This document shows, piece by piece, positions 3,387-33,762 of a DNA stretch of 33,762 nt. The number at the start of each line of letters is the position of its first letter. Position 1 is the stretch's first letter. This DNA is from a bacterium (lineage in GTDB: Bacteria > Actinomycetota > Acidimicrobiia > Spongiisociales > Spongiisociaceae): positions 1-33,762 of the forward strand of contig JAPPGV010000038.1 in the NCBI GenBank assembly GCA_028821235.1, written 5' to 3'. Under the pieces are notes generated by a model. That model saw nothing but the letters and a program-made list of their open reading frames with translations. It did no database searches and was not told the origin of the DNA. Position numbers and translations under genes: made by a program.

Positions 3387-4262
3387 ATGACCGAGATGGT
3401 TGGAGTAGTCGGGCTCGGGGTCATGGGCTCAGCCATGGCGACCAACCTGGTTGCGGCCGGTCACACGGTCGTAGGGTTCGATATCGACCCGCGGCGGAGA
3501 TCCTCCGCAGCCGAAGCCGGTGTCCGGATCGAGGATTCGGCGGGGGCCGTGGGAGCCGCCTCCGGGATCGTTATCTTCTCGTTGCCCACCCAGTCGGCCC
3601 TGGCCGACGTTGCCTCCCAGGTGGCGGCCCGAGCCCGCGAGGGCCTGCTCTGCCTGGAGACCGGGACCTTCCCCCTCGCAGCCAAGATCGCGGCCAGGGA
3701 TGTCCTGGCAGCGTCCGGTATCGAACTGATGGATACCCCGGTCTCAGGAACCGGGCTCCAGGCGACCGAAGGCACCCTTGTGGTGTTCGCATCCGGGAGT
3801 CGCGAGGGCTTCGACCGGGCCCGCGCAGTGTTCACGGCCATCGGCCGGTCGAGTCACTACCTGGGGGAGTTCGGGAACGGGTCGAAGATGAAGTACATCG
3901 CCAACCTATTGGTGGTGGTGCATACCCTGGTTGCCGCGGAGGCCCACGTTCTGGGCATGGCAGCTGGCATGGACCCGGCGACCGTGCAGCGACTGGCCGA
4001 GGACAGTACCGGCTCCTCGAAGATGTTCGAGATCAGGGGTCCGATGATGGTGATCGATGACTACCCGCCGGCGGGCCGCCTCGACCTCCTCGTCAAGGAC
4101 GCCGAGATCATCAAGGACTTCGCGACAAGCGCCGGCTCCCCTACGCCGCTGCTCGACACGGCGCTCGAGGTCTACCGCCGTACGAGCGCCGCCGGCATGG
4201 GGGACTTCGACGCCGCCGTCCTCTGTAGCCATCTCGAAACCGAGGCCGGTCTCGAGAGGTGA
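3387..4262 (+). CDS. NAD(P)-dependent oxidoreductase, 3-hydroxyisobutyrate dehydrogenase family
   Basis: A 291-residue cytosolic beta-hydroxyacid dehydrogenase. The N-terminal Rossmann fold starts with VGVVGLGVMGSAMATNL (GLGVMG at 9-14). The substrate loop DTPVSGTGLQATEGTL (near 116-131) corresponds to the family's DAPVSGG segment. The catalytic Lys is Lys169 in GNGSKMKYIANLL, where the second Asn of the usual K-x-x-N-N survives as Asn173 and the first is Ala. GAAGGAGC just upstream gives a good ribosome site for ATG 3387. Relatives act on 3-hydroxyisobutyrate, tartronate semialdehyde or 2-keto-3-deoxy sugar-acid products. Its place after a sugar transporter suggests reduction or oxidation of a small hydroxy-acid intermediate. 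The exact substrate is open. Confidence 0.85.
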   Translation: MTEMVGVVGLGVMGSAMATNLVAAGHTVVGFDIDPRRRSSAAEAGVRIEDSAGAVGAASGIVIFSLPTQSALADVASQVAARAREGLLCLETGTFPLAAKIAARDVLAASGIELMDTPVSGTGLQATEGTLVVFASGSREGFDRARAVFTAIGRSSHYLGEFGNGSKMKYIANLLVVVHTLVAAEAHVLGMAAGMDPATVQRLAEDSTGSSKMFEIRGPMMVIDDYPPAGRLDLLVKDAEIIKDFATSAGSPTPLLDTALEVYRRTSAAGMGDFDAAVLCSHLETEAGLER

Positions 4263-4268
4263 TCGGGT

Positions 4269-4451
4269 TCATCTGACGAGGAGAGACACCACCAACGTGA
4301 CAGCCCCGATTGTGAGCCCCGCGGAGGCGAATATGGCCATGATCGTCCACCGTATCCAGCGGCTCATGGTCTGTTCCACGTCCAAGAGCGTCCGGGTCCG
4401 AGCTTCGTCCGCCCGGGCATCCACATAGCCTTCGGTAGCTGTTGCCATCAT
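4269..4451 (-). CDS. Small single-pass membrane protein, unknown function
   Basis: About 60 residues. A charged N-terminal helix rich in Ala, Asp, Glu and Arg is followed by one strongly hydrophobic C-terminal segment (WTIMAIFASAGLTIGAVTL, then VVSLLV) ending in Arg. ATG 4451 or 4448 is preferred over the longer frame starting at 4481, because GGAG (complement of 4454-4457) lies just upstream of these two adjacent ATGs. The gene converges on the dehydrogenase with six bases between the stops. I recognise no family. The helix-plus-anchor layout would suit a small regulator or membrane adaptor, but that is speculation. Confidence 0.45.
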   Translation of the reverse strand: MMATATEGYVDARADEARTRTLLDVEQTMSRWIRWTIMAIFASAGLTIGAVTLVVSLLVR

Positions 4452-12771: not shown

Positions 12772-13002
12772 ATGGCTCGGACCAACATCTACATCGACGA
12801 TGATCTCGTCAACCGCGCCATGCGGACCTTCGGACTGCGCACCAAGCGTGAAGCGGTGCACCTCGCGTTGGAACGCCTCCTCGGGGGCGGACCGATGAGC
12901 GTCGAGGAGCAGCTGGGTATGGAGGGCGTCGGGTGGGACGGAGACCTGGACGCCATGCGGTCGAACCGGTTCGGCGGCTGGGACGAGGGTGCTGATAGCT
13001 GA
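12772..13002 (+). CDS. vapB: VapB-family type II antitoxin
   Basis: A 76-residue protein. The start [20 protein letters not shown], followed by [17 protein letters not shown], is a classic VapB ribbon-helix-helix DNA-binding N-terminus. The acidic and Trp/Gly-containing tail (ending GGWDEGADS) would wrap the toxin's active site. ATG 12772 is set by the family start and by the -10 box just upstream; the open frame extends to 12622 but that part is low-complexity. It overlaps the toxin gene by 14 bases, so the pair is translationally coupled. The protein is expected to neutralise VapC and repress the operon. Confidence 0.88.
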
Positions 13003-13381
13003 CACGTCCGCCTGGATCGAGTTCTTGAGAGGGACCGGTTCCTTCCCGGCGGGACGTTTACGGCAGGCCATCTCCGCAAGCGAGGTGATCGTCATCGACC
13101 CGATCCTGATGGAGGTGATGGCGGGCTCCCGCCGCGACGCCGTGGCGCGCACGCAGCGACTGCTGGAAGCACAACATTTGGAGGCGTTGTCCCCCAAGCT
13201 CGATTGGCTCGATGCCGCAACCATCTACCGGGAGCTCAGATGGCGCGGAGTGGTGGTTCGCTCGCAGATCGACACCTTGATCGCGGCCACCGCAATCCGC
13301 CTCGATGTGCCGGTGCTGCACCATGACCGCGACTTCGGGCACATCGCCAGGCACACACCACTCCGGATGGTCACAACCTGA
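12989..13381 (+). CDS. vapC: VapC-family PIN-domain ribonuclease toxin
   Basis: A 130-residue PIN domain. Acidic catalytic residues are at the expected places: Asp5 ([12 protein letters not shown]), Glu42 ([11 protein letters not shown]), Asp95 ([12 protein letters not shown]) and Asp113 (HHDRDF). Length is typical for VapC (about 125-135). These toxins cut tRNA or rRNA at specific sites when the antitoxin is degraded; the actual target cannot be read here. GTG 12989 lies within the end of the vapB gene. With all four acids present the toxin should be active, so the locus looks intact. Confidence 0.92.
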
Positions 13382-19623: not shown

Positions 19624-22463
19624 CGCGCCTCCCACCCCAGCCCGGCGAGGTGATCGACCGGTCCCGTCCCGTCGGCTTCACCTGGAATGGGCGGGCGATG
19701 TCGGGTTTCGCGGGCGACACCATCGCCTCGGCGCTCACGGCGGGAGGGGTGCGGGTCGTCTCACGGTCGATGAAGTACCGGCGACCGCGGGGCTACATGA
19801 GCAACGACTACTGGGATCCCAACGGGCTGGTGCAGGTGGGAGACGATCCCAACGTCCGTTCGGCGCACCGGTTGATCGCGCCGGGCATGGCGGTGGAGGC
19901 CCAGAACGTGTGGCCGTCGCTCGAACGCGACCTGAGAGCGGTCACCGGGCTGGCCTCTCGGTTCCTGACCGCCGGCTTCTACTACAAGACCTTCATGCGT
20001 CCCATGTGGCTCTGGCCGACCTACGAGAAGGTGCTGGCCACCTTCTCGCCCGGAGGGAGGATCGACCTCGACACCCCGCACCGTTACCACGACAAGCGCT
20101 ACACCCACCCCGACGTGGTCGTGGCCGGGGGAGGCCCGGCCGGGATGGCCGCTGCGCTCGCGGCGGCCGAGGCCGGAGCGAGGGTGCTTCTGGTGGAGCA
20201 TGGCCACCGGCTGGGGGGCCACCTCCTCTGGGGAGACGAACACGATCGGGCGCTGGCCGCCGAACTCGCGGCTGCGGTCGAAGCCGCCGGAGTGGAAGTC
20301 CTGGTCGATTCGACCGTCACCGGCCGATATGAGGACAACTGGACGGCCATCGTCCAGCGCAACCACCCTGTCGCGGTGGAGCGCCTGGTAAAGGCCCGCG
20401 CCAAGGTGCTGATCGCCGCGCCGGGTCTGATCGAGCGGCCCTACGTTTTCGACGGCAACGACAAGCCCGGTGTGATGTTGTCGGGCGCGGTCCGCCGGTT
20501 CGTGAACATGCGCGCGGTGAGACCGGGCAGCACCGCGGTGGTGTTCACGGCCAACTCCGACGGGGACGCCGCCGCCGTCGACCTGGAGCGGACGGGCGCG
20601 GAGGTGGCGGTGGTCGACGCACGCCGGGGCGGAGATATCGTGCGAGCCCGAGGGGGATCGAAGAGCGTCAAGGGTGTGGAACTGGCCGACGGCAGGACCC
20701 TGGACTGCGATCTGCTGGTCACGGCTGCCGGCTGGACCGCTCCCACGTCCCTGCTGAACATGTCCGGGGACCGACCTGTCTACGACGAGGCAACGGCCCG
20801 CTTCTTCCCGTCGGTCCAGATCGGCAACGTCCTGGCAACCGGAGGTCTGGTGGGCGACGGCAGCCCGGATGAACTCATCGAGCACGCCAGGGCTACCGGT
20901 CGGCTGGCCGCGGCCAGGGCGCGGGCGGTGAGCCATCGACTGCAGGCCGCCACAGCCCGTGCCCGGCCGGTAAGCGGTGAAGAACCCGAGTGGCCGCCGG
21001 ATATTCGCCCGGCCCTGCCCCGGGATTCTCATCCGGCCCTCTTCCGGTCGACCACGCACGGGGTGGTCGACTTCTCCGAGGATGTGAGTTCGAAGGACAT
21101 GGTGGGAGCGGCGGCCGAGGGATACGACTCCGTCGAACTGCTCAAGCGCTACACGACCGCCACGATGGGCCCGAGCCAGGGCAAGCTGGAGACCGTCAAC
21201 ACGGTGGCGGTGCTGGCTGAGGCCAGGGGACAGACGATCGCCGAGGTCGGGACCACCGTGTGGCGGCCGCCGTACGCGCCGATCACCATGGGCGCCCTGG
21301 GCGGGCGCTTGTTCGAGCCGGTGCGGGTGTCGTCGGTCCATCCCTGGCACGAGACCAACGGCGCGACATTCATGCTGGCCGGCCAGTGGATCCGCCCCGA
21401 TCACTACGGAGACCCGGCCGGCGAGGTGCGCAACACGCGGCAGAACGTCGGCATCATGGACGTCACCCCGCTCGGCAAGCTCGATCTCCGCGGCCCCGAC
21501 GTTCCGAAGCTGCTGAGCCACCTCTACACCAACAAGTGGATGAAGCTGGCGGTGGGTTCGGTGCGTTACGGGATCATGTGCGCCGAGGACGGCGTGATCC
21601 TCGACGACGGCGTGACGGGTCGGCTCGGCGATCAGCACTACATGATGACCACCACCAGTTCCGGCGCCGCGACGGTGTGGGAGTGGACCGAGAACTGGCT
21701 CCAGACCGAGCATCCCGAATGGCAGGTTCACGTCACCCCGGTCACGTCCGGGTACACCAGCATCAACGTGGCGGGGCCGAAGTCACGGACGCTCATGCGG
21801 CGCCTGGCGGGGGATGTCGACCTCGATCCTGATGCCTTCAGGTACATGCAGGTGCGCACCGCGACGGTGGCCGGCATCCCGGACTGCTTCATGTGGCGCA
21901 TCGGCTTCACCGGGGAGCTCTCCTTCGAACTCCACGTTCCCGCCGGCCATGGCCTGGCGGTGTGGGAGGCTCTGCTGGAAGCCGGCGAGGATCTCGGTAT
22001 CAGGCCGTTCGGCGTGGAGGCCCAGCGCATCATGCGGCTGGAGAAGGGCCACTTCATCGTGGGCCAGGACACGGACGGGCTTACCAAGGCCCCAGCCGTA
22101 GGACTTCGGCACCTCATCAAGCTCGACAAGCACGACTTCGCCGGCAAGCCCGAGTTGGCCTGGGCCCTGGAAGACACATCGGCGCCCGTGCTGGTAGCCA
22201 TCCAGCCCCCCGAAGGCCGGGTCGTGCCGGACGAGGCTTCGCAAATCGTGCGGCCCGGCACCGACGAGATCATCGGCCGGATCACCTCCTCTCGCATGTC
22301 CCCGTCCCTGCACCGCGCGGTCTGCCTCGGCCAGGTGCTGCCGGAGGTCTCGGACCCCGGTACGGAGCTCACTGTGGTCCTGCTCGACGGCCGCCGCATC
22401 ACCGCTCGGGTGATGGAACACCACGCCCACTTCGACCCGGATGGAATGCGGGTCCGTGGCTGA
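19620..22463 (+). CDS. mgdC/soxA: N-methylglutamate dehydrogenase subunit C / sarcosine oxidase subunit alpha (SoxA family)
   Basis: A 947-residue large subunit. The N-terminal ferredoxin-like domain (VGFTWNGRAMSGFAGDTIAS, then SRSMKYRRPRG) precedes a dinucleotide domain with VVVAGGGPAGMAAALAAAEA near 163-182. This part carries NAD and, in sarcosine oxidase, helps FMN/FAD electron transfer. The C-terminal 400 residues are an aminomethyltransferase (GcvT) fold, beginning near ETNGATFMLAGQW, which binds tetrahydrofolate and captures the methyl carbon as methylene-THF. ATG 19620 overlaps the SoxD-type stop; the in-frame extension to 19458 lies inside that gene and is rejected. Length is close to the usual 960-1000. 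It overlaps the SoxG-type gene by eight bases. Confidence 0.9.
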   Translation: MTRLPPQPGEVIDRSRPVGFTWNGRAMSGFAGDTIASALTAGGVRVVSRSMKYRRPRGYMSNDYWDPNGLVQVGDDPNVRSAHRLIAPGMAVEAQNVWPSLERDLRAVTGLASRFLTAGFYYKTFMRPMWLWPTYEKVLATFSPGGRIDLDTPHRYHDKRYTHPDVVVAGGGPAGMAAALAAAEAGARVLLVEHGHRLGGHLLWGDEHDRALAAELAAAVEAAGVEVLVDSTVTGRYEDNWTAIVQRNHPVAVERLVKARAKVLIAAPGLIERPYVFDGNDKPGVMLSGAVRRFVNMRAVRPGSTAVVFTANSDGDAAAVDLERTGAEVAVVDARRGGDIVRARGGSKSVKGVELADGRTLDCDLLVTAAGWTAPTSLLNMSGDRPVYDEATARFFPSVQIGNVLATGGLVGDGSPDELIEHARATGRLAAARARAVSHRLQAATARARPVSGEEPEWPPDIRPALPRDSHPALFRSTTHGVVDFSEDVSSKDMVGAAAEGYDSVELLKRYTTATMGPSQGKLETVNTVAVLAEARGQTIAEVGTTVWRPPYAPITMGALGGRLFEPVRVSSVHPWHETNGATFMLAGQWIRPDHYGDPAGEVRNTRQNVGIMDVTPLGKLDLRGPDVPKLLSHLYTNKWMKLAVGSVRYGIMCAEDGVILDDGVTGRLGDQHYMMTTTSSGAATVWEWTENWLQTEHPEWQVHVTPVTSGYTSINVAGPKSRTLMRRLAGDVDLDPDAFRYMQVRTATVAGIPDCFMWRIGFTGELSFELHVPAGHGLAVWEALLEAGEDLGIRPFGVEAQRIMRLEKGHFIVGQDTDGLTKAPAVGLRHLIKLDKHDFAGKPELAWALEDTSAPVLVAIQPPEGRVVPDEASQIVRPGTDEIIGRITSSRMSPSLHRAVCLGQVLPEVSDPGTELTVVLLDGRRITARVMEHHAHFDPDGMRVRG

Positions 22464-23055
22464 TCTCCCCGCCTTCGAGAGTCCTGTCAGCAGGAGCTTC
22501 GTGTCCCAAGAGGGGGCATCGATGGAGCCCGGCCAGCCCGGCGAGGCGCTAACCCTCCATGATGTCTCCGCTACCACCAAGATCATCGTGAGGGCCGGAC
22601 CTGAGACGGCCGCCCACGACCAGATGGACGCCTCCTTCGGCACCAGCCGGACCGAGGAGGGTGTGCTCGTTGTAGGCCAGCGCCCGGACGAGTGGATCAT
22701 CCTGGGTCCGGCCGCTGCGAGCCGGGCCCTGGTCGACAGGTTGGACCGCTCCGGCCATGTCAGCGTGATCGATCACACCCACAGCCGGGCCCTGTTCCGG
22801 CTGACCGGAGCAGAGGCGGCTTCGGTGCTGGAGAAGCTGTGCAGCCTCGACTGCAACGACCACATGACGCCCGACGGCGCCGCCGTCTCGGCCCCGGTGG
22901 CGAAGGTGACCTGCGACATCGTCCGCAACGATGTCGACGGCACCCTCTCCTACCTGATCTCCTGCGACCGGTCCTACGGCCAGTACCTGTTCGACGCCAT
23001 ACTCGACGCCCGCCACGAGTTCGGTATCAATCCCAAGGAAGTAATGGGCAGTTGA
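22456..23055 (+). CDS. mgdD/soxG: N-methylglutamate dehydrogenase subunit D / sarcosine oxidase subunit gamma (SoxG family)
   Basis: A 199-residue subunit with a GcvT-related fold and no own cofactor. Family features are VIDHTHSRALFRLTGAEAA, LEKLCSLDCND and a Gly-Gln-Tyr segment (RSYGQYLFDAILDA) near the end. GTG 22456 overlaps the SoxA-type stop and removes a short upstream extension that lies inside the previous gene. It ends the operon. About 180 bases without a gene follow before the tandem-repeat protein. SoxG subunits diverge strongly, so the call leans partly on operon position. Confidence 0.85.
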   Translation: MADLPAFESPVSRSFVSQEGASMEPGQPGEALTLHDVSATTKIIVRAGPETAAHDQMDASFGTSRTEEGVLVVGQRPDEWIILGPAAASRALVDRLDRSGHVSVIDHTHSRALFRLTGAEAASVLEKLCSLDCNDHMTPDGAAVSAPVAKVTCDIVRNDVDGTLSYLISCDRSYGQYLFDAILDARHEFGINPKEVMGS

Positions 23056-23235
23056 TCCGCTACGGACCGGGGCGGACAGGCGGGAGAATCGACCAAGGTG
23101 GGCCACTTCAGGTCCCCCATGATCTGATCAGTGTTTTGTGCATATCCGCGGGTCAACTGGTTCCTTCCCTACACCATTTCCGCACGTTCTGTTACTGTCG
23201 GAGACCGAGAACTTCTAACGAGTGAATGACTGCCA

Positions 23236-24144
23236 ATGGAACCCCATACACCAGTCCCAGCCCCCACATCCGACGGACCCGGACGCAAAGGCGGAGGGTG
23301 TCGTCGGATCGCAATGTGGGCGGCCATGGTCGTTGGTGGTGTCTTGGTGCTCGGCGTGGTTCTCTCCTTGGTCGGTGGGGACGATGAGTTGACAACGCCA
23401 CAGGAGGAAGTGACCGGTGGTGACGCCGTTTCGGTTACGACAGCCACTCAGGCCACGACAACCACTCAGGCCACGACAACCACTCAGGCCACGACAACCA
23501 CGACCGAGCCGCTGATCCTGGACTATCCAGCAACCAGGGTGGCTGGTCGCGGGACTCGTGTTGCGGATCTGGAGATCATCGGCGGTGGGTTGTGCACGAT
23601 TACCGTAACCGTCAATGATAATGTTGACTCGTCCTTTGGTAGCGATATTGAGAGCAACTTCGCCGTTATTCAGGTTGATCCTCCCGGCGGCTTTGATGCT
23701 CTGTGGGTGAACGAGATTGCCCGGAGCGGAACATGGGAGAAAGCTGTCCGTTACGAAGTCGGCAGCGGGTGGGTAACAGTCCAGGTTGAGGCCGAGGGGG
23801 ACTGGGTTATCGAGTCCGACTGCAGCACACGGGTGGCCACTAGCTCCAGGGTGGCTGGTCGCGGGACTCGTGTTGCGGATCTGGAGATCATCGGCGGTGG
23901 GTTGTGCACGATTACCGTAACCGTCAATGATAATGTTGACTCGTCCTTTGGTAGCGATATTGAGAGCAACTTCGCCGTTATTCAGGTTGATCCTCCCGGC
24001 GGCTTTGATGCTCTGTGGGTGAACGAGATTGCCCGGAGCGGAACATGGGAGAAAGCTGTCCGTTACGAAGTCGGCAGCGGGTGGGTAACAGTCCAGGTTG
24101 AGGCCAAGGGGGACTGGGTTATCGAATCAAACTGCCGCGGTTAG
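23236..24144 (+). CDS. Membrane-anchored protein with two identical tandem domains, unknown function
   Basis: A 302-residue protein. A short Pro/Gly/Lys/Arg-rich cytosolic tail precedes one transmembrane helix (IAMWAAMVVGGVLVLGVVL, about 26-47). A Thr-rich linker follows, containing three TQATTT repeats, and then two copies of a ~98-residue beta-rich domain (RVAGRGTRVADLEIIGGG at the start, GDWVIES at the end), each with two Cys that could pair. The copies differ at a few residues near the end only. I recognise no family. Base and codon use is clearly less GC-rich than the neighbours, as in NDNVDSSFGSDIES encoded with AAT, GAT and ATT. ATG 23236 has a poor ribosome site. It sits between the mgd and mgs operons, convergent with the latter. 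Confidence 0.7.
   Translation: MEPHTPVPAPTSDGPGRKGGGCRRIAMWAAMVVGGVLVLGVVLSLVGGDDELTTPQEEVTGGDAVSVTTATQATTTTQATTTTQATTTTTEPLILDYPATRVAGRGTRVADLEIIGGGLCTITVTVNDNVDSSFGSDIESNFAVIQVDPPGGFDALWVNEIARSGTWEKAVRYEVGSGWVTVQVEAEGDWVIESDCSTRVATSSRVAGRGTRVADLEIIGGGLCTITVTVNDNVDSSFGSDIESNFAVIQVDPPGGFDALWVNEIARSGTWEKAVRYEVGSGWVTVQVEAKGDWVIESNCRG
23446..23499 (+). repeat. Three 18-bp repeats encoding a TQATTT linker
   Basis: ACTCAGGCCACGACAACC occurs three times head to tail (23446-23463, 23464-23481, 23482-23499). It encodes the Thr-rich spacer between the membrane helix and the repeated domains. Exact repetition makes copy-number change by slippage likely. Confidence 0.85.
23534..23828 (+). repeat. First copy of a ~295-bp tandem repeat (domain 1)
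   Basis: This segment is repeated 312 bases downstream. The first 260 bases (23534-23793) are identical to 23846-24105. The first difference is G23794 versus A24106 (Glu to Lys), with further changes only in the last ~30 bases. Confidence 0.95.
23846..24140 (+). repeat. Second copy of the ~295-bp tandem repeat (domain 2)
   Basis: This is the second copy, 312 bases after the first. A 17-base spacer encoding RVATS-like residues separates them. The lack of even silent changes over 260 bases points to a very recent duplication or to gene conversion. Confidence 0.95.
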
Positions 24145-24184
24145 GTGGTGCCTCGGAACAGTGAAGGCCAATGGAAGGTGGGCA

Positions 24185-25519
24185 TTAACGCTTCCGTCTG
24201 GCGCCGGGGATCCAGTTGGTGCCGGCTACCGGTACCTGGGCCATGGCGGCTGCTTCCACGGTGAGGGCGGCGAGGTCCTCCGGTTCGAGGTTGGAGACGT
24301 GCGACTTGCCGCAGGCCCGGGCGATGGTCTGGGTCTCCATGGTCAGCACCTGTAGGTAGTTGGCCAGGCGGCGTCCCGCGATCACGGGATCGAGGCGGGC
24401 GGTCAGCCGAGGATCCTGGGTGGCGATGCCGGCCGGGTCGGTCCCGTCCTGGAGGTCGTCCCAGAAACCCGCTGCCGAGCCCAGCTTGCGGTACTCGTCG
24501 TCATAAGCGGGATCGTTGTCGCCGAGGGCGATCAGCGCCGCGGTGCCGATCGAGACCGCATCCGCCCCGAGCGCCAGGGCCTTGGCCACGTCGGCGCCCG
24601 ATCGGATACCTCCCGACGCGATCAGCTTCACCGAGCCGCGGTGCACGTCGAGGTCCTGGAGGGCTCGGGTGGCTTCGGGGATGGCGGCGATGGTGGGTAT
24701 GCCCACGTGCTCGATGAACACGTCCTGGGTGGCGGCCGTGCCCCCTTGCAGGCCGTCGACCACCACCGCGTCGGCGCCGGCCTTGACGGCCAGGGCCGTG
24801 TCGTAGAAGGGTCGGGCCGCACCGATCTTGACGAAGATCGGGACCTGCCAGTCGACGATCTCGCGAAGCTCGTGGATCTTGATCTGCAGGTCGTCGGGTC
24901 CTGTCCAGTCGGGATGGCGGCAGGCCGACCGCTGGTCGATCCCGGAGGGCAGCGTGCGCATCCCCGCCACCCGCTCGCTCACCTTCTGGCCGAGGAGGAT
25001 GCCGCCCCCGCCCGGCTTGGCGCCCTGGCCCACCACCACCTCGATGGCGTCGCCTCGGCGCAGGTCGTCGGGATTCTGCCCGTATCGTGAAGGGAGGTAC
25101 TGGTACACGAGCTTCGATGAGTGCTCCCGCTCCTCCGGCAGCATCCCACCGTCCCCGCTCGTGGTCGAGGTGCCCATCGCGCTGGCGCCCCGGCCCAGTG
25201 CCTCCTTGGCCCGGGCGGATAGCGAGCCGAAGCTCATGCCGGCGATGGTGATGGGGATGTCGATCCGGAGGGGCCGGGCCGCCCGCTCCTCGCCGATGAC
25301 GAGATCGGTCCCGCACGACTCCCGGTAGCCCTCAAGGGGGTAGCGCGACATGGACGCCCCGAGAAACACCAGGTCGTCGAGGATCGGCATCTTCCGCTTG
25401 GCGCCCCAGCCCCGGATCCGGTAGACGCCGGTGTTGGCCGCCCGGTGGATCTCGGCGATCACATGGCGGTCGAACGTGTACGACTCACGCAGGCGCCAGC
25501 TGTCTCCTGGGCCGTTCAT
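24185..25519 (-). CDS. mgsC/glxD: N-methylglutamate synthase subunit C / FMN-binding glutamate synthase family protein (GlxD type)
   Basis: A 444-residue protein with the FMN/central barrel of glutamate synthase. Signature segments are MSFGSLSARAKEALGRGA, QGAKPGGGGILLGQKV, VKIGAARPFYDTAL, VDGLQGGTAATQD and LIASGGIRSGADVAKALALG, which hold FMN and the glutamate-like product. The Cys cluster that binds 3Fe-4S in GltB is absent: the matching region reads DDLQDGTDPAGIATQDP with no Cys. This absence is, as I recall, normal for the GlxD/MgsC group. In the pathway it would turn 2-oxoglutarate plus a methylamine-loaded donor into N-methylglutamate. ATG 25519 has GAGGAGAG upstream and overlaps the previous stop as ATGA. 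Confidence 0.87.
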   Translation of the reverse strand: MNGPGDSWRLRESYTFDRHVIAEIHRAANTGVYRIRGWGAKRKMPILDDLVFLGASMSRYPLEGYRESCGTDLVIGEERAARPLRIDIPITIAGMSFGSLSARAKEALGRGASAMGTSTTSGDGGMLPEEREHSSKLVYQYLPSRYGQNPDDLRRGDAIEVVVGQGAKPGGGGILLGQKVSERVAGMRTLPSGIDQRSACRHPDWTGPDDLQIKIHELREIVDWQVPIFVKIGAARPFYDTALAVKAGADAVVVDGLQGGTAATQDVFIEHVGIPTIAAIPEATRALQDLDVHRGSVKLIASGGIRSGADVAKALALGADAVSIGTAALIALGDNDPAYDDEYRKLGSAAGFWDDLQDGTDPAGIATQDPRLTARLDPVIAGRRLANYLQVLTMETQTIARACGKSHVSNLEPEDLAALTVEAAAMAQVPVAGTNWIPGARRKR

Positions 25520-26223
25520 CCGGCTCTCCTCGCTACTTCGGCGTTGATGTCGTCGATGTGGAAGTTGTAGAGGTTGCGGGCCGATCCGTACCGCTTGAAG
25601 TCCCACGGGTCGGCCTCCATGCCGGCGGCGGCGAGCAGCCCGGCAAGGGTCCGGGCGTGTTCGGGCCGCATGTCCTTCGCGATGGCGTCCGCGCCAAGGC
25701 TCTCCACCTCGCCCCGCACGTACATGTTGGCCTCGTATACGGAGTCCCCGAGATCGGCGCCCGCGTCACCGAGCACTGCCAGGTTCCCGGCCTGGGCCAT
25801 GAACGCGCTCATGTGGCCCACGTTGCCGCCCACCACGATGTCGGCGCCCTTCAGCGAGATACCGCACCGGGCCCCGGCGTTGCCCTCGATCACCACCAGC
25901 CCGCCGTGGCCGGTGGCGCCGGCCGACATGGTGGCGCTGCCGGTGATGCGCACGGTTCCCGACATGATGTTCTCGGCCAGCCCGGTGCTGGCGTTGCCGT
26001 CCACGTACACCGATCCCTTCTGGTGCATGCCGGCGCAGTAGTAGCCGACCGAACCGTGTACCTCTACGGCGATGTCGGCGTCGATGCCGCACGCGACCGC
26101 ATGGGCCCCGCGCGGGTTCAGCACCCGGAACGAGCCTTGCCGGGCCTGGTGGAGCGTCCGGTTGAGGTCGCGCAGCGGTGTCTCCGCTAGGTCGACCGTG
26201 GTGACCGGGTGCGGTGTGCTCAC
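25516..26223 (-). CDS. mgsB/glxC: N-methylglutamate synthase subunit B / GXGXG-motif protein (GlxC type)
   Basis: A 235-residue subunit corresponding to the C-terminal GXGXG beta-helix of the glutamate synthase large subunit. Repeating Gly patterns run from GSVGYYCAGMHQKGSVYVDG through GGLVVIEGNAGARCG, VVGGNVGHMSAFMAQ and VLGDAGADLGDSVYEA. It is structural, positioning the amidotransferase and FMN subunits. GTG 26223 overlaps the stop of the amidotransferase gene as GTGA (26223-26220), and its own stop overlaps the next start. The frame extends to 26820, but that part lies inside the amidotransferase gene and is rejected. Three-gene order A-B-C matches mgsABC and glxBCD. Confidence 0.87.
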   Translation of the reverse strand: MSTPHPVTTVDLAETPLRDLNRTLHQARQGSFRVLNPRGAHAVACGIDADIAVEVHGSVGYYCAGMHQKGSVYVDGNASTGLAENIMSGTVRITGSATMSAGATGHGGLVVIEGNAGARCGISLKGADIVVGGNVGHMSAFMAQAGNLAVLGDAGADLGDSVYEANMYVRGEVESLGADAIAKDMRPEHARTLAGLLAAAGMEADPWDFKRYGSARNLYNFHIDDINAEVARRAG

Positions 26224-33154: not shown

Positions 33155-33762
33155 CTACGAACCGCCGCCCTCGGAGCCGTGACCCTCTCCTCTTCCCTCG
33201 CCTGATCCTTCGGAGCCCTCGCCGGCCCCTTCGCCTCCGGTGCCCTGGTCGGTGCCTTGGTTGCCCACTTCGGCGTGGGCGACCCAGGTGTCGAAGGGTT
33301 GGGTGGTGGCGTCCAAGCGCACGTCCACGATCTCTCCGGGTGCTAGGTCGATGGGGGTTGTGGGTCCGAGTTCCACTCCGTTGGAGAGGTGGATCTCGAT
33401 CCGGACGTTGGTCAGGGTGGTGTTGGTGGTGTTCTCCACCGTCCCGATGAAGGCGTTGGCTGCCGGGTCGTAGTTCATGATGAGCCGTGACCCGGCCCGG
33501 ACCTGGTCGAAGGTGTCGTTGAGTCCGTACTGGGTGGTGTTTTCCTCACCGCCTCCGGCACCGGTCTCCGTACCCTCGCCGGCCCCTTCGGTTCCTTCAG
33601 GACACTCACTGGCCCCTTCGCCTCCGGTGCCCTGGTCGGTGCCTTGGTTGCCCACTTCGGCGTGGGCGACCCAGGTGTCGAAGGGTTGGGTGGTGGCGTC
33701 CAAGCGCACGTCCACGATCTCTCCGGGTGCTAGGTCGATGGGGGTTGTGGGTCCGAGTTCCA
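33155..33762 (-). CDS. Repetitive extracellular protein, C-terminal part (5' end outside window)
   Basis: At least 202 codons; the frame is open to the window edge. It contains a full ~85-residue beta-sandwich-like domain (from TFDQVRAGSRLIMNYDPAA to WVAHAEVGNQG) with the pattern FIGTVENTTNTTLTNVRIEI. This recalls FxLYD or other small beta domains that bind or space at the surface; no close family is assured. Gly/Glu/Thr-rich linkers separate the units, and the tail is a Gly/Glu/Ser-rich run with His and Arg. The beginning of the partial frame repeats the same domain's second half, so copies continue upstream. The repeat period is 387 bp (129 residues). No catalytic motif is seen. Confidence 0.75.
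   Translation of the reverse strand, partial: ELGPTTPIDLAPGEIVDVRLDATTQPFDTWVAHAEVGNQGTDQGTGGEGASECPEGTEGAGEGTETGAGGGEENTTQYGLNDTFDQVRAGSRLIMNYDPAANAFIGTVENTTNTTLTNVRIEIHLSNGVELGPTTPIDLAPGEIVDVRLDATTQPFDTWVAHAEVGNQGTDQGTGGEGAGEGSEGSGEGRGEGHGSEGGGS
33224..33762 (-). repeat. 387-bp-period tandem repeat in the surface-protein gene
   Basis: 33224-33375 is identical to 33611-33762, 152 bases without a mismatch and reaching the window edge. The offset is 387 bp, an exact multiple of three. The full number of units lies outside the window. Confidence 0.92.

Follow-up and report, generated by a model that had tools for sequence, protein, structure and literature searches.

How does a predicted bacterial surface protein come to end in two domains that agree base for base over most of their length, when other pairs in the same family are diverged? 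The question is posed by one gene in a 33,762-nucleotide stretch of DNA (hereafter the window), which comprises positions 1 to 33,762 of the forward strand of contig JAPPGV010000038.1 in assembly GCA_028821235.1, from a member of the Spongiisociaceae (Acidimicrobiia, Actinomycetota). Elsewhere in the window, at 12772-13381, lies a small VapBC-like toxin-antitoxin pair, an antitoxin-like frame followed by a PIN-like one, recognised by eye only. The gene under study encodes a single-pass membrane protein with a threonine-rich stalk and two near-identical C-terminal domains, and it is the only member of its family in its own genome. Its parts are as follows.

23236-24144, + strand: open reading frame of 302 codons (302 residues), free of stops
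23308-23376, + strand: predicted membrane segment, approximately residues 25-47 (Kyte-Doolittle maximum 2.54 at residue 25)
23377-23529, + strand: threonine-rich stalk, with three 18-bp repeats (TTQAT) within 23437-23501
23534-23826, + strand: domain copy 1, exact core 23534-23793 and tail 23794-23826
23827-23845, + strand: unique inter-domain spacer of 19 bp (CSTRVATSS region), read from the sequence
23846-24138, + strand: domain copy 2, exact core 23846-24105 and tail 24106-24138

A basic N-terminus without a lipobox precedes the membrane segment, and the protein would be anchored in the membrane with its domains displayed at the cell surface. Copy 2 runs up to the stop codon and is separated from copy 1 by seven residues, a spacing within the range of the family. 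Each domain has two cysteines (C20 and C96), conserved within the window's sub-branch and compatible with an extracellular disulfide.

The extent of the repeat is as the preliminary description gave it: comparison of the sequence with itself confirmed both its coordinates (23534-24140) and its 260 identical bases, with 23534-23793 matching 23846-24105 at an offset of 312. Over the whole 293-bp unit (23534-23826 and 23846-24138) the copies are 98% identical in DNA and 97% in protein, and all five mismatches (23794, 23814, 23817, 23818 and 23824) fall inside the last 33 bp. The exact core contains approximately 63 silent sites, all of them unchanged between the copies (upper limit 0.047 per site at 95%). 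Similarity of the proteins alone is insufficient to account for this, because in 50 shuffles of the gene's synonymous codons the longest exact repeat averaged 15 bp and reached no more than 26 bp. Sampling 753 kb of this genome, with runs of N ignored, turned up no longer exact close repeat, and the runner-up, at 152 bp, also lies in the window. This second tandem repeat (33224-33375 and 33611-33762, offset 387) belongs to a gene on the minus strand (33155-33760) for a glycine- and glutamate-rich probable surface protein with a weak DUF7507 match. The assembly broke there, since the contig ends exactly where the second copy ends.

Such a repeat invites the suspicion of an assembly error, whether the doubling of a single-copy gene or the fusion of alleles from two strains. 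The assembly is in draft form, with 162 contigs and gaps of N, and this very contig ends exactly at another repeat. Against this, approximately 50 bp (23794-23846) take in the copy-1-specific tail bases, the unique spacer and the point where copy 2 begins, and the reading frame is kept through both tails. A pure artefact is unlikely because the junction between the copies is unique sequence that single reads would span, and we regard artefact in either form as quite improbable. Two copies is nevertheless a lower bound, since an exact 260-bp repeat may conceal more. Repeats were also seen at two further loci. At L122 (G000:C67, 1896-2150), a 108-bp repeat rich in histidine, aspartate and glutamate adjoins a 100-N scaffold gap and is probably a collapsed array, and at L074 (G000:C33, approximately 3400-4300) a very long cadherin-like protein has repeats of approximately 300 bp, partly homogenised in places (exact stretches of 71, 45 and 41 bp).

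If both copies are real, their identity must be set against a clock. Between the window and the nearest sampled genome, silent divergence (dS) ranges from 0.07 in mgsC to 0.21 in soxA, compared with zero in the core of the repeat, which supports the earlier proposal of a recent duplication or of maintenance by gene conversion. Taking the homologue in the congener G008 as outgroup, copy 1 is ancestral at all four in-domain differences, and copy 2 is derived at each, every change being to A and all falling within 25 bp. Were mutation uniform, all five mismatches would be confined to the final 33 bp of the 293 with a probability of 1.4e-5. Conversion of the core that spared the 3' edge of copy 2 would be the simplest account, and the pattern suggests it; a local cluster of mutations or recombination between strain alleles are possible alternatives. 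A single, very recent tandem duplication without any conversion, its 3' differences being a patch of mutation or the end of the duplicated unit, would equally leave zero silent changes across 260 bp, and four changes confined to copy 2 and all to A resemble one mutational event. This reading is tentatively possible, yet it must contend with the improbable clustering under uniform mutation and with the spacer, where TRVA imperfectly repeats the domain start, differing from it at silent sites. This partial repeat is perhaps a weak trace of an older array, which would not fit a single recent event. We therefore favour duplication followed by conversion of the core, as the reading suggested by the mismatches.

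The history of the pair becomes clearer when the domain is placed among its relatives. The preliminary description recognised no family for it, and this was borne out, as the protein matches no family at a meaningful score in Pfam, NCBIfam or PHROG; searches of the literature on this gene or domain likewise found nothing. In the homologue search of congeners, many matches were threonine-rich low complexity (E above 1e-6) and were dropped. A profile built from the window and its relatives picked up the domain across the phylum, in 36 of 396 genomes (E up to 1e-4), and tblastn added haloarchaeal plasmids, three phage records and a TM2 protein on an Arthrobacter plasmid. The window copies match this unnamed LLVNEIG-type paired domain (consensus G-x-GDdVv...tHdG-x-SNFAVw...LLVNEIGxYxG...LEvxAdGxWxI) over the whole domain, and alignment and tree concur. 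Profile comparison of the window domain with that of G017 gives 1.5e-25, and the A3 profile scores the two copies at 3.5e-22 and 1.0e-21, these profiles including the window row itself. The window shares with the wider family a C-terminal position for the domains, a membrane anchor or lipobox-like N-terminus and a low-complexity linker. Its sub-branch differs in having an insertion near residue 30 and the two cysteines.

Comparison of domain number across relatives revealed a family that is normally paired. Among 38 family rows, some of them near-duplicates, 34 (the window included) have exactly two domains, lying next to each other; a single domain is found in three rows, and three domains in one. 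Outside the window, paired domains are 24-54% identical in protein, compared with 97% for the window copies, the exception being a 76% pair in the three-domain protein (L050, from G020), whose domains 2 and 3 agree at 76% in both protein and DNA and represent another, older duplication. The tree sorts first from second domains strongly (6 changes, compared with 22 after shuffling), which makes pairing an old trait, though possibly one of multiple origin. Relatives with two old, diverged domains, which the preliminary description had named as evidence against a recent duplication, are thus present in the family, though none belongs to the sub-branch of the window itself. The window's closest relatives, G008 and G282, carry a single domain that ends CRG-stop as copy 2 does, and the window, G008 and G282 domains all fall among the second domains (support 89/82 and 91/88), on a branch that is long (2.13) and of moderate rather than strong support. 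The window's pair is not a combination of old first and second types, as both of its copies are nearest to second domains in the tree. Since G008 and G282 have a single domain each, it appears that the window returned to a pair by copying the only domain it had. One might instead suppose that two copies are ancestral, held identical by continuous concerted evolution, and that the single-domain relatives each lost one: identity at silent sites can date no more than the latest homogenisation, and two domains are what most members of the wider family carry. We consider this improbable, given that G008 and G282 are single-domain with ends like that of copy 2, and that divergence in the family's other pairs shows concerted evolution not to be the general rule.

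The gene also appears to be of foreign origin. Its surroundings are as follows.

22441-23055, + strand: left neighbour, sarcosine-oxidase-gamma-like mgd subunit (mgdG/soxG), with Pfam GCV_T and SoxG matches
23056-24184, no strand: variable cargo slot between the convergent mgdG/soxG and mgsC stops, defined by comparison with relatives
24185-25540, - strand: right neighbour, convergent mgsC-like glutamate-synthase-type subunit, from its open reading frame

The gene has a GC content of 58.6% compared with 66.4% for the window, bearing out the lower GC noted earlier, and its third-position GC is 62.7% compared with 85.3 +/- 4.1% in the 27 other window genes, 5.5 standard deviations lower. The junction between the mgd and mgs operons is empty in four congeners (G001, G004, G006 and G007), in three of which (G004, G006 and G007) the convergent stops lie 4 bp apart, and the nearest sampled genome also lacks the gene at this site. 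In other relatives the junction holds different cargo: a PhdYefM/ParE pair (G003), a protein kinase (G002), an SLH plus possible metallopeptidase gene (G005), or sequence without an assigned identity (G008 and G010). Only one of nine congeners searched has a convincing homologue (G008, 2.5e-44), on another contig, where it is flanked by an IS21 IstB gene on one side and an IS1595 transposase on the other. Bin names hint that the sister assemblies may come from sponges. At the window's own junction neither a target-site duplication nor an integrase was seen. It is nonetheless well supported that the gene is foreign cargo inserted at a permissive junction, because its third-position GC, the empty or variable site and the IS-flanked homologue all point that way; the idea of import in the preliminary description draws its support from the same three observations, the homologue being in a sister species. 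A phage origin was rejected, the window's sub-branch having no match in IMG/VR or phage records. Lying between two convergent metabolic operons, the junction offers a clear instance of a slot for gene exchange.

Cargo in such a slot might serve defence, and the G003 toxin-antitoxin pair occupies this same position. The whole protein also approaches the immunity family Imm7 (PF15585) at 24.6 bits, just below the Pfam cut-off of 25. That match bridges the border between the domains and falls to E 0.05 on one domain alone, a membrane anchor and stalk are atypical of such proteins, and no toxin gene neighbours it. The Imm7 identity was rejected on its sub-threshold score and its weakness on a single domain, and an immunity-like or other defence role is very improbable.

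Taken together, these observations can be joined in one account. A low-GC cargo gene for a membrane-anchored surface protein would have entered the convergent mgd/mgs junction, a probable spot of repeated gene exchange in the genus. Its ancestor would have carried one jelly-roll domain of the second-domain type atop the threonine-rich stalk, and in the window's lineage that domain would have been duplicated in tandem with a seven-residue spacer. The copies may then have been kept or made identical over 260 bp, either because the duplication is extremely recent or, as is more likely, because intragenic gene conversion passed over the 3' tail of copy 2 and left it diverged, and the duplication would have restored the two-domain unit of the wider family. 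Import, single-domain ancestry, tandem duplication with conversion and a role in binding together form an account that we hold to be reasonably probable. Weighing against it, the single-domain ancestor rests on two relatives placed by a long, moderately supported branch, two is a minimum copy number, and the fold matches are generic for jelly-rolls. To the earlier picture this adds pairing as the normal state of the family, a window branch that appears to have become single-domain, and a duplication that restores the pair. Whether pairing is functionally required, such that a lineage that lost its first domain rebuilt the pair from its second, is a more speculative step and one we hold only tentatively. 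If true, this would be a two-domain architecture re-formed and caught in the act on a mobile surface gene. The duplication in any event serves as a dated case, polarised by an outgroup, of how bacteria come to have two-domain surface proteins; if pairing is necessary, comparing the single-domain relatives with the window protein would directly test why. The case is clear but modest in evolutionary terms. The LLVNEIG-type family, unnamed in the libraries searched, could be given a definition on the basis of the present alignments.

Predicted structure, compared with fold databases as the preliminary description had suggested, gave a jelly-roll with generic fold matches. AF2 models the single domain as an all-beta sandwich of jelly-roll type (pLDDT 85), and the two-domain model reaches a pTM of 0.79, which hints at a fixed arrangement of the predicted domains. 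Jelly-rolls are common folds, and such matches give no function. Anchor, stalk and fold make the binding of an extracellular glycan or protein ligand the most likely role, for which doubling could provide avidity or a shared two-domain interface or site, and selection may have favoured pairing. Three known systems offer comparison. Modules of the CBM6/CBM22 type are jelly-rolls, often in tandem (Z approximately 7), to which the window protein stands in contrast in having neither an attached enzyme nor identified binding residues. In the extracellular tandem beta domains of SIDT1 and SIDT2 both domains align jointly with the window's (VIA Z 9.6, rmsd 4.3, 178 residues) at 7% identity; as SIDT proteins are multi-pass membrane proteins of animals, the likeness is likely to be one of shared arrangement only. 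The s3a-s3b collagen-binding domains of ColG (PPC, PF04151) head the Foldseek matches for the two-domain model (E 1.5e-5), yet with a TM-score of only 0.33, a VIA Z of 6.1 for the domain, which is the generic jelly-roll level, and no significant match in sequence. A PDB sequence search with the window protein returned nothing significant, and the PPC Pfam profile was not listed for the window domain, while the relative L051 matches PPC weakly (E 0.081). What ColG-type domains and the window's pair may have in common is a build as tandem jelly-rolls, borne in the ColG type on secreted proteins.
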